Source of the DNA: an uncultured Caryophanales bacterium
GTDB lineage: Bacteria > Bacillota_I > Bacilli_A > RF39 > UBA660
Direction of reading: 5' to 3'
DNA: 12,772 nt
Assembly: GCA_946535455.1 (NCBI GenBank)
Contig: CAMNDO010000004.1
Span: 1-12,772 of the forward strand
Shown here: one piece after another, positions 1 through 9,923 of the stretch
Layout of the letters: each line of letters starts with the position of its first letter
Position numbering within the stretch: the first letter of the stretch is position 1
Notes under the pieces: model-generated
What the model saw: the letters and a program-made list of their open reading frames with translations, nothing else
The model's database searches: none
What the model was told of the DNA's origin: nothing
Position numbers and translations under genes: made by a program

Positions 1-1127
1 GTGAAGACATTCCCCCATCCTCCTGCAGCATCAAAGGCTTTTTGATAATTTTGAAAAAGTGTTTTTCCACCATAATCTTTATAAATCATAGATAGTGCTG
101 GCTGTGCTATTCCCTCTAATCCACCAGTTAGTGCATCTAATCCAACTCGAACTCCTACGCCATGATTTGCTCCCTTAAATATTCCACTAGCAATCTTATC
201 TCCAAGACCACCAATTTGATTGATTTTAGCTCCTACATAGAATTGTGTTCCTTCCCAAACTCCTGTTGCTACTCCATATTTTAATCCTTTTGCTATATTG
301 GCTCCATCTGCCCATGCATCTTCTGTTCCACGAGAAAATCCCATCACTCCTGCAGTGGTAGCTAAATTGGATGCTCCCATTGCCATCCCACCTGCACCAC
401 AGGTCAGTGCCGTTAATCCTACAATTCCTGCAGTATATCCAAGTCCAGATCCAATTCCACGACAGGCATCAAAAGCATAGGCGTTCTTTTTAATGCTTCT
501 TCCAATATCTGTTTGCTCATAAAAAGAATTAAACGCATTTTCCACATGTTTTTCAGAAACAAACGCTTTCGTTTCATTCCACATTCTTTCTGTGACATTA
601 TCCCCTGTGAACAAATCCCAAAGTCCTGTAAAAATAGTAGCTACTCCTGCTCCTCCTAGAACAATCAAATCCGCTCCTGTTTCTACGACTTCTAATCCAC
701 CTTCTAATAATCCTAATCCAAAGGCAGCTGCAGAAGCTCCTGCTCCTTTAAAAACGTTCCCCACTTCACGATCTGCCGAAATATAAGAAGCAATCGGTGT
801 TAAATCTAACGAATTATAGTCACTTCTTGTTAATGTATTTAAGAAAGCATCTATTTCTTTTTGATCTGCACTATATTCTAAAATGGCAATTTGTTTTTGA
901 CGAATAAATTGTATTAAAACTCCTACTGCATCTTCACATTGATTCACATAATTAGAAAAAGTATCACTCTGAAGATTTCCGATATATTCTGAAAAACCTT
1001 TTGCTGAAACAATCTGATTGGTCGCAGATTTTATACTAGACGCCAAAGAAGGAAATTGATCTTTAATACGATCAATTTCCATTACTGTTTGATTGACAAT
1101 GTCCCCGTTATAGCGGACCGTTGCCAT
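1..1127 (-). CDS. LXG-type T7SS effector, N-terminal part (runs off the window)
   Basis: This is the first 375 codons of a large protein; the C-terminus lies beyond the left edge. Residues 1-120 are predominantly helical with no signal peptide, as expected of the WXG100-like head of LXG substrates of type VIIb secretion. Residues about 122-172 and 222-262 are rich in Gly and Ala and hydrophobic, as in the middle region of many polymorphic toxins. The rest of the visible part stays Gly-rich. The ATG overlaps the stop of the DUF4176 gene by one base (TAATG), and the nearest purine-rich stretch (GGAG) is about 11 nt away, so translation is probably coupled. The family call rests mainly on context: a small helical protein, then DUF4176, then a long effector is the order of known LXG export modules. 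The toxic activity cannot be stated because the C-terminal domain is not visible. A non-toxic surface protein exported by the same route is the alternative. Confidence 0.65.
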   Translation of the reverse strand, partial: MATVRYNGDIVNQTVMEIDRIKDQFPSLASSIKSATNQIVSAKGFSEYIGNLQSDTFSNYVNQCEDAVGVLIQFIRQKQIAILEYSADQKEIDAFLNTLTRSDYNSLDLTPIASYISADREVGNVFKGAGASAAAFGLGLLEGGLEVVETGADLIVLGGAGVATIFTGLWDLFTGDNVTERMWNETKAFVSEKHVENAFNSFYEQTDIGRSIKKNAYAFDACRGIGSGLGYTAGIVGLTALTCGAGGMAMGASNLATTAGVMGFSRGTEDAWADGANIAKGLKYGVATGVWEGTQFYVGAKINQIGGLGDKIASGIFKGANHGVGVRVGLDALTGGLEGIAQPALSMIYKDYGGKTLFQNYQKAFDAAGGWGNVF

Positions 1128-1396
1128 TATTTTATTTTCTCCATTTCTTTTTCTAACGTAGAAAGAAATTTAGTTCCCTCTTCATCGCTAAATCCTGTAT
1201 ATATAATTTTCTCTATTTTATCTCGATTAAATAATAGATTTTTATCAGCACCAATGACACCTATTGGATAGGCACATCCTAAGTAATCCCATACTTTATC
1301 GCTACCTTCTTCCACAGGGGCATAACCAATAATGACAACATATCGCTCTGCTTCTTCTAATAAAACAACACTTCCAATGGGTAATAGATGTCTCAT
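1127..1396 (-). CDS. DUF4176 protein, Lap2-like LXG targeting factor
   Basis: An 89-residue cytoplasmic protein with no signal peptide or membrane segment. It has the DUF4176 pattern: LPIGSVV near the N-terminus (residues 5-11), a VVIIGY strand, a DYLGCAYPIG block around residues 37-46, a FNRDKIEKI block, and a Glu/Lys-rich C-terminal helix. DUF4176 proteins are encoded beside LXG toxins in Firmicutes. For several toxins they have been shown to act as a targeting factor (Lap2) that binds the LXG effector and is needed for its export by T7SSb. The start ATG follows AGGAGTG at good distance, and the stop overlaps the next ATG. That this protein serves the downstream effector is inferred from position. 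Confidence 0.82.
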   Translation of the reverse strand: MRHLLPIGSVVLLEEAERYVVIIGYAPVEEGSDKVWDYLGCAYPIGVIGADKNLLFNRDKIEKIIYTGFSDEEGTKFLSTLEKEMEKIK

Positions 1397-1410
1397 AATT
1401 TCACTCCTAT

Positions 1411-1785
1411 TTATCTTCTTCTGCTATTTTGGATTGCTATTTGATCTTGTGTTTGTGCATCATAATTCATTTGATTTTGAATGTCATTATAAGCATTAAT
1501 AGCTGCTTCTCGAATCTGTGAAGTCATACTCATAATTCCTTCTTGTACACTGACAATATCCGTACAATACTCTTCTACACTCCCTACTATAGTTGCATCA
1601 TCAACTGACAAAGTATTCACATCTAACCGTGTAGAAGTTTCTAATATATTATTCGAAAGTTTTGATATCTGACTTGCTTCCTGATCTACCGCATCACATC
1701 CATTTAAAATGGAATTTAAATCAATTAGACTACTGGCAGACTGAGCAGATATGAAAACCCCTTGATATGGATTTAGTATTTGCAT
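1411..1785 (-). CDS. WXG100/Lap1-like small helical T7SS partner
   Basis: A 124-residue, almost entirely alpha-helical protein without Trp, Cys or signal peptide, ending in a basic triplet (RRR). Size, helical character and position as first gene of the module match the WXG100-like Lap1 (DUF3130/TIGR04197-type) partners that pair with LXG toxins for export. No classical WXG turn and no clear FxxxD tail are visible, so the family call is by context and fold type. I chose ATG at 1785 because the purine-rich GAGAG lies 8 nt upstream. An in-frame GTG three codons earlier (1794) is too close to it. It lies 14 nt upstream of the DUF4176 gene and is transcribed from the extended -10 promoter at 1809-1817. 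Confidence 0.6.
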   Translation of the reverse strand: MQILNPYQGVFISAQSASSLIDLNSILNGCDAVDQEASQISKLSNNILETSTRLDVNTLSVDDATIVGSVEEYCTDIVSVQEGIMSMTSQIREAAINAYNDIQNQMNYDAQTQDQIAIQNSRRR

Positions 1786-1808
1786 AGGCACCACTCTCTA
1801 TTATCTTT

Positions 1809-8659: not shown

Positions 8660-9646
8660 TTATTCGCCTTCTTCTTTGATTACTTTTTTTAACTCTTGTT
8701 CTACTTTACTAATCGTTGTATTTTCAAATCTAGCTGCCCCATTGAAAGAGTCTCCTCCTCCACCTAGTTTTACTAAAATCTCACTAATATCATAGTTTCC
8801 TAAACTTCTAGCACTTAATCCTACTGTGTCTTTTCCTATCTTTCCAATGACAAAAGATGCTTCTATGTTATTAAAGAAAAGAAGAGTGTCTGCTACTTTC
8901 GCTAAATCCTCTCTACGGTATTCCGTATAAGGACTTCCCTTAGTAAAAGCTACATTTTTATGAATGGTCTCAATATCAGACATCATTTTTTGTCTTTCTA
9001 CATAGGACTCAATATCTTGTTTTAATAAGTACTGTACTTTTTTTGCACTTGCTCCTAACGAAGTTAAATAATAAGATGTATAAAATGTTTCTGCATTGGT
9101 ATTTAAAGTAAAGTTATTGGTATCTAATACAATTCCTGATAATAGAATCGTTGCATAATAAGAATCAATTTCTACATCATAATATTCAATTAAATTCGCA
9201 ATCATTTCACAAGTACTAGATACTTTATCATCCATAATCATGAGAGCATCTTTGATTGATGTTTTTCCTAAATCATGATGATCAATCACTATTTTTTTCT
9301 CAATACTTTGTAGTGCTTCTTTACTTTGTACAAGATCCTTCTTATTCGTATCTAATATGATTAATAAGTTTTTCTTTTCGTTTTTATGTTTATATTCTTC
9401 TAATCTTTCACTACGAATAATATCCACACAGCCCTCTAGTTCTCTTAAAACTTTTTCTACCCCTAGTTCATGTTCTTTATCATCGATAATTAAATATACA
9501 TTCTTCTTTTTTCTTTTTAGAATCATGTACATTCCAATAGAACTTCCTAGAGCATCTAAATCCAAATCTTTATGAGCCATTAAAAATATATTTTTGGCTT
9601 TTCGAATCGTGCAATTTAATTTTTTTCGTTCCCTAATGATACTCAT
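8660..9646 (-). CDS. Stand-alone DHH/DHHA1 phosphodiesterase in the gdpP position
   Basis: A 328-residue soluble protein with a DHH domain (about 1-185) and a DHHA1 domain (about 200-325). The likely metal ligands are visible: His25, Asp29 and Asp31 ([11 protein letters not shown]), Asp99 (LDTN), DHH at 122-124, and Asp175 (VLDTNN). Position before rplI-dnaB identifies it as the counterpart of GdpP (YybT), which degrades c-di-AMP. GdpP is about 650 residues and has two membrane segments, PAS and a degenerate GGDEF before the DHH part; all of that is absent, and a ncRNA and promoter lie directly upstream. The GGGGH motif normally seen in DHHA1 of GdpP reads GGGGD here (Asp299). It may cleave c-di-AMP or pApA, or be an altered oligonucleotide phosphodiesterase. 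It is the first gene of the operon, with AGGAGG 4 nt before the ATG. Confidence 0.85.
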
Positions 9647-9701: not shown

Positions 9702-9714
9702 ATCGAAATAAAGC

Positions 9715-9739
9715 AAAAAAATGTAGTTTCCTACATTTA
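9715..9739 (-). terminator. Terminator of the ncRNA gene
   Basis: On the minus strand ATGTAG-GAAA-CTACAT (9736-9721) forms a 6-bp stem with a GNRA tetraloop. Flanking A/T pairs extend it, and a run of T follows (9720-9715). It separates the 6S-like RNA from the downstream DHH operon promoter. Confidence 0.85.
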
Positions 9740-9752
9740 TTTTTGAAATATA

Positions 9753-9910
9753 TTGTCTAAAAAACGAGGGGATAAAACCCGCTTCTTCCAGGTGGGTATC
9801 TATACTCAACTTTTAGGATTCCTATTCTAGATAGGCTTTCAACACCGGTTGACTTGTTCCAGATTCCCTTATTTTAACTTGGTCGGTTTCATAACTCAAT
9901 CTCTAGACAA
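9753..9910 (-). ncRNA. ssrS: Probable 6S RNA
   Basis: A non-coding transcript of about 158 nt (about 195 nt to the terminator). The predicted fold is a rod. A closing stem pairs 9911-9900 with 9764-9752 (UUGUCUA with UAGACAA, then A/G-U pairs). GAG 9897-9895 pairs with CUC 9768-9766, and AUGAAACC 9892-9885 pairs with GGUUUUAU 9779-9772. A large open bubble follows (16 nt at 9884-9869 opposite 14 nt at 9793-9780). A further stem GGG-A-AUCU / AGAU-A-CCC (9868-9861 with 9801-9794) leads to an apical hairpin, CCUAU-CUAGA-AUAGG (9835-9821). Closing stem, central bubble and terminal stem is the architecture of 6S RNA, which binds the RNA polymerase housekeeping holoenzyme by imitating an open promoter. 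Fold, length and own promoter and terminator support it; I could not run a covariance search. A novel structured RNA is the alternative. T-box, tmRNA and SRP RNA motifs are absent. Confidence 0.6.
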
Positions 9911-9914
9911 TTCT

Positions 9915-9923
9915 ATTGTATCA
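9915..9923 (-). promoter_or_regulatory. Extended -10 promoter of the ncRNA
   Basis: The minus strand reads TGATACAAT, an extended -10 with TACAAT at 9915-9920. No strong -35 is present at 16-18 nt. The predicted start is at about 9908-9910, exactly where the 5' arm of the closing stem begins, which supports the start of the RNA. Confidence 0.7.

Follow-up and report, generated by a model that had tools for sequence, protein, structure and literature searches.

The rpsR–DHH gap and its RNA

On the minus strand of the window (the whole stretch of DNA analysed, 12,772 nt), 364 nt separate the stop of rpsR (10011) from the start of a DHH gene (9646), and this gap holds no ORF of 60 aa or more. 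The names rpsR, ssb, rplI, dnaB, aspS, hisS, tcdA and lexA were assigned by eye from translations (the hisS probe being a short C-terminal piece only), with DHH/DHHA1 and abhydrolase as the only neighbours checked against Pfam. The DHH/DHHA1 protein (8660–9646, minus strand) has only 328 aa; GdpP of Bacillus subtilis additionally carries membrane, PAS and GGDEF parts. Another DHH protein, with 28–37% identity (E < 1e-26), is present in 32 of the 39 genomes of the genus. At the other end of the window (3–1794, minus strand), the encoded proteins resemble type VII secretion (LXG/WXG-like) substrates by eye, and the two that were scanned gave no Pfam match.

6S RNA is common and widespread in bacteria and is thought to imitate an open promoter, thereby keeping RNA polymerase idle. 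A sequence-only reading of the window had proposed a probable 6S RNA in the gap, either a diverged one or a new RNA class, to be checked against Rfam RF00013, by covariation in relatives and by looking for another 6S gene in the genome. One of the outcomes that it named as refuting was a convincing 6S RNA at another place combined with no transcript from the gap. Rfam cmscan matched 9750–9912 (minus strand) to RF00013 over the full length of the model (1–187), with 57.7 bits against a gathering score of 46.4 and an E-value of 1.5e-9. None of the other Rfam families (4227 in all) reached its own gathering score in the window. The RNA thus belongs to the 6S family, and the new class falls away. 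Our model R1, which was used only to find copies because its consensus structure was poor (27 pairs), gave the window copy 130.3 bits, the window having been in its training set.

The features of the gene are collected in Table 1. The extended -10, the transcript start at the base of the closing stem, the bubble of 16 opposite 14 nt and the GNRA-loop terminator of the sequence-only reading were all recovered, the predicted +1 being a G at ~9908. The bubble was read from the minimum-energy fold, ignoring five weak pairs drawn inside it; so read, it is flanked by the closing and apical stems, as in 6S RNAs. The fold of 9714–9914 (-47.8 kcal/mol, z -2.71, equalled by 2 of 200 shuffles) is only moderately unusual. 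Since some copies prefer other shapes when folded singly (e.g. B_G005 and A_G000), we base the bubble shape on the family model and the alignment.

The gene has its own promoter and terminator sequences. An automated scan of the window reported no terminator, as its rule demands at least 3 G-C pairs and the 9737–9720 stem has 2; the promoter at 9923–9915, which is without a -35 box, was also missing from its list. Second hairpins past the closing stem were seen by eye in most other gaps with this RNA, and the T run directly after the closing stem is lost in the window copy.

Table 1. Positions of the 6S RNA gene and its associated elements in the window
Feature	Position	Strand	Basis
Degenerate site TTGACAGTGA, half of TTNACGTNAA	9968..9977	minus	Position of the palindrome in 11 of 12 B copies
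Extended -10 TGATACAAT	9915..9923	minus	TGN-TA(C/T)AAT with unchanged spacing in all 12 B copies
6S RNA gene, copy B	9750..9912	minus	RF00013, 57.7 bits; R1, 130.3 bits
Closing stem, 5' strand (pairs with 9755-9763)	9900..9908	minus	Fold, pair counts
P2 helix, 5' strand, with pRNA template (pairs with 9772-9779)	9885..9892	minus	Fold; template conservation
5' strand of the central bubble, 16 nt, with the pRNA start predicted opposite C9881	9869..9884	minus	Fold
Apical arm	9794..9868	minus	Stems 9868-9860/9794-9802, 9852-9848/9806-9810, 9835-9831/9821-9825 (fold)
Central bubble, 3' strand, 14 nt; can form a small hairpin with GGGU	9780..9793	minus	Fold
Closing stem, 3' strand	9755..9763	minus	Fold, pair counts
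Intrinsic terminator	9715..9737	minus	Hairpin 9737-9720, GAAA loop 9730-9727, T's to 9715

Covariation of the stems

We aligned the 12 copies found at this locus in the genus (copy B), three of them with trimmed ends, and counted changes on the window's own fold, a template that favours the window structure over slid controls. Both-side changes occurred in 12 of 40 pairs (shuffle mean 6.0; slid versions 1–5), 86.0% of cells were paired (shuffle mean 82.5) and the covariation score was 0.158 (shuffle mean 0.100); for each of these three measures none of 500 shuffles reached the observed value, and the slid versions were lower. When copy A, the other 6S RNA of the genus, was added (46 distinct rows, truncated A_G022 excluded), 21 of 40 pairs showed both-side changes (shuffle mean 16.9) in 162 cells (shuffle mean 60.7), neither count being reached by any of 500 shuffles, and the score was 0.242 versus 0.131 in shuffles. 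One of the five measures, further standard pair types, was not above the shuffles (reached by 459/500 for B and 150/500 for A+B), and the covariation term in RNAalifold's own B consensus was small (-0.96 kcal/mol).

All three stems of the apical arm (helices 4, 5 and 6) contain both-side changes. The window copy has C-G at 9862-9800 and U-A at 9861-9801; in most B copies these pairs are U-A and C-G, respectively. The template stem P2 is nearly invariant and, as it hardly varies, is uninformative on covariation. The 6S stems are supported by covariation among relatives, one of the checks named in the sequence-only reading. It is the RF00013 match together with this covariation that decisively confirms the observation; fold statistics alone would be modest.

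Copy A, the other 6S gene of the genome

The genome of the window (G000) is a draft with 60% completeness in 110 contigs. A second 6S gene was detected in it on contig C7 (G000:C7:5088-5269) with 53.1 bits, above the RF00013 gathering score, so that a convincing 6S RNA does exist elsewhere. This leaves the finding in the window intact, since the copies are distinct, each of them keeping to one location in the genus genomes that carry it, and since Bacillus genomes with two 6S genes are known (PMC7726162 and PMC8414754).

The C7 copy adjoins aspS-like and tcdA-like genes, the usual location in the family. At least one of these C7 neighbour genes lies within 1.5 kb of 29 of 29 aligned A-type copies of the genus, the tcdA-like gene in 26 of the 29. 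Copy A was seen in 36 of 39 genus genomes, including one truncated at a contig end (G022); those of G015, G022, G013 and G026 were missed by RF00013 and later found near tcdA-like genes, and that of G059 was assigned by its tree position, not its flanks. No copy A was seen in the assemblies of G021, G009 and G034, which also gave no tcdA match.

Copy B, seen here only within the genus

Copy B occupies the rpsR–DHH gap in 12 of the 39 genus genomes (G000, G005, G015, G016, G020, G021, G022, G025, G029, G032, G035 and G061), and the locus is thus conserved in 12 species. An R1 search of the same gap gave no match in 26 other genus genomes, nor in the 702 nt before DHH in G059, where the rpsR side is off the contig. 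Four related species (L107, L114, L119 and L137) carry an apparently protein-coding insert (by eye) in a gap of ~1.2 kb where others have 6S-B, and a different insert (0.7 kb) is present in the gap of G002 (L132).

Among 43 named DHH loci, 21 matched genus genomes, 3 of them with B, and the gaps of the other 22, two of which (L067 and L084) cluster with G015, a member of the genus, in the tree, contained no 6S match. R1 otherwise returned three weak matches (E 0.1 to 0.75), all outside any rpsR–DHH gap. In a family survey with strict filters, by which weak matches are lost, 136 6S matches were obtained in 133 of 145 genomes (132 of 144 genera). We examined the flanks of 109 of these loci, a set to which the known B loci of G000 and G016 do not belong, and none lay beside rpsR or DHH. 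At least one of the C7 neighbour genes named above was present at 76 of the 109; the remaining 33 matched no A or B probe, bar one lexA-like match. The rpsR–DHH location for 6S RNA is found here only in the window's own genus.

Two matches per genome were obtained in the survey only for G000, G016 and G085. The other copy of G085 (L192, ~1500–1680, minus strand) is near an exonuclease-like gene (by eye) and not between rpsR and DHH, so this duplication, in another genus of the family, is apparently independent. Among the matches listed for titles on 6S RNA with rpsR, Mollicutes or Tenericutes/Erysipelotrich, none dealt with the rpsR–DHH locus or the genus.

Origin of the two copies

A 6S tree built from 57 sequences (12 B, 36 A and 9 outgroup) placed the genus's A and B copies in two sister groups; local support was 0.96 for the A group, 0.80 for the B group and 0.97 for the two combined. 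B clustered with the genus's own A, apart from the copy pairs of G042, G045 and G056. Mean identity in the trimmed alignment was 0.78 among B copies, 0.80 among A copies and 0.66 for A against B, the window copy (B_G000) being 63% identical to A. The window copy forms a long branch and is among the more divergent B copies.

On a species tree of four proteins (39 genus genomes and 7 outgroup records, with G059 counted as without B), the presence of B requires at least 6 changes compared with a shuffled mean of 10.7, and 1 of 1000 shuffles was as low. The best-fitting history is a single early origin of B within the genus and several later losses; alternatively, recombination at the B locus may have contributed to this pattern.

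Copy A of G032 resembles copy B of the same genome in the apical arm (L035, 1501–1687, against L019, 1501–1685), with identities of 0.75–0.80 in two windows of the alignment compared with 0.60 between B and other A copies. This likeness would fit a gene conversion in which part of one copy was replaced by the other. A weaker hint of A–B likeness was noted in G016.

Promoters and the upstream palindrome

All 12 B copies share the extended -10, and no clear -35 was visible by eye. The A promoters inspected in the same way show TATAAT-like boxes, usually together with a CTTG-type -35. The palindrome TTNACGTNAA is present in 11 of 12 B copies and begins 68–69 nt ahead of the T that precedes +1; in shuffled upstream sequences it is expected with a probability of ~0.003 per sequence. 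It was found in none of 32 A upstreams (of 36; G010, G059, G002 and G022 left out). In the window only one half of it is left (Table 1).

As the looser 10-mer would match by chance too often, the genome-wide search was limited to the strict form CTTWACGTYAAS, which matched in 15 of 39 genus genomes. Seven of these (G005, G021, G022, G025, G029, G032 and G035) have it once per genome, at the B locus, and the other 8 are without B; the remaining 5 B genomes, including G000, gave no match to it. The pattern read backwards, used as a control, had more matches than the pattern itself. With the matches in genomes lacking B and this higher control, no regulon emerged for CTTWACGTYAAS, and the search allows no factor to be named. 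Nor does the palindrome agree with the cre or AdcR consensus site.

Template, collapse helix and possible mechanism

The pRNA template AAACC(G/A)(A/C)C was detected in 35 of 35 A copies (truncated A_G022 left out) and 12 of 12 B copies. According to PMC8414754, pRNAs carry GG at position 4/5 or 5/6, and an adenine precedes their start. The window template AAACCGACC would give the pRNA GGUCGGUUUCAUAA, which has GG at 5/6 and the upstream A, and on this basis its start is predicted opposite C9881. AA at pRNA positions 9/10, as in lactic acid bacteria, is absent from it.

PMC8876501, together with what is known of the family, describes 6S RNA as an open-promoter mimic that binds sigma-A RNA polymerase and is freed on pRNA copying. 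By analogy, the window RNA would bind the housekeeping sigma-A polymerase in the same manner, would hold it idle when nutrients run low and would itself be released once the polymerase transcribes a short product RNA from the template, beginning near C9881. For B. subtilis 6S-1, the same source describes a collapse helix, formed by the distal 5' bubble with the 3' strand of P2, that supports release. All 35 A copies tested have the equivalent helix (CBCH, ACGAU/AUCGU), against only 2 of 12 B copies (G005 and G022); it is absent from the window copy, in which other pairs can form a weaker alternative duplex (-6.0 kcal/mol). The best duplex averaged -7.5 kcal/mol in A and -4.2 kcal/mol in B (Mann-Whitney p 2e-5, the sequences not being independent), and no significant A–B difference was found for the 3'-bubble hairpin (p 0.28).

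Judged from the sequences, the differences in collapse helix and promoter suggest that A and B have diverged. Given the different promoter and the lack of the collapse helix in 10 of 12 copies, B may release polymerase differently and may respond to another signal. A more elaborate scenario, which we consider rather unlikely, is that the genus split the 6S function: copy A would keep a -35/-10 promoter and a built-in release switch, while a dedicated activator would bind the palindrome ~64 nt upstream of the B start, at an extended -10 promoter, and B, mostly without the collapse helix, would trap polymerase more lastingly under a particular signal, a control that the window species would be losing.

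Alternative explanations

The window copy may have reduced function, in view of its divergent sequence, the loss of half of the palindrome and the loss of the T run after the closing stem. That it is a former 6S gene decaying in the window species alone, with copy A doing the work, seems improbable to us. The long branch, the broken palindrome and the at least 6 changes on the species tree, by which losses likely happened, would fit such decay; however, the extended -10, closing stem, pRNA template and terminator are all retained, and the copy has compensatory changes of its own. More improbable still is a structured, riboswitch-like leader of the DHH-rplI-dnaB operon. Although the RNA directly precedes the DHH gene in the same orientation, it stops at its terminator (9715), and beyond this comes a separate promoter (TAGACA-17-TATAAT, 9701–9673), a similar one being seen by eye in the longer gaps without 6S that were inspected; no other Rfam family scored at or above gathering here. 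A new RNA class that is 6S-like in outline only, for which the divergent sequence and the lack of the collapse helix that copy A has might speak, is hardly credible next to the full-length RF00013 match, a mean B–A identity of 66% and the 63% of the window copy.

We therefore regard the region from 9908 to ~9715 (minus strand) as very probably a free-standing 6S RNA gene, the second paralogue (B) of the genus. It accounts for an unannotated stretch in small-genome Bacilli, a group represented mainly by drafts from gut and rumen. To our knowledge, why many Bacilli keep two 6S copies is unsettled, and a genus with B in 12 of 39 species, differing clearly from A in its promoter and in the predicted release switch, offers a natural comparison on this question.

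Comparison with known 6S RNAs

The window copy shares with 6S RNA (SsrS, RF00013) the full-length covariance match, the rod with a central bubble, a CCGA-type pRNA template and the conserved GGG...CCC adjoining the bubble. It differs in being shorter (~154 nt, counted from +1 through the closing stem) and in sitting between rpsR and DHH.

A 2014 study by Burenina reportedly compared 6S-1 and 6S-2 of B. subtilis, and one by Wehner from the same year is said to survey 6S dissemination. The aspS ... tcdA neighbourhood, that of B. subtilis bsrA (6S-1), is the location of the C7 copy and not of the window copy; sister copy A hence resembles 6S-1 in place, whereas the window copy is elsewhere and is without the collapse helix of the A copies tested. 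Its arrangement of bubble, P2 template and 3'-bubble hairpin is like that of 6S-1 in PMC8876501. The 6S-2 RNA (bsrB) of B. subtilis and the tandem ssrSA/ssrSB of the B. cereus group, as given in PMC7726162, are likewise second 6S RNAs beside a main one, but copy B differs from them in being of separate origin by its location and by a 6S tree made without named Bacillus sequences.
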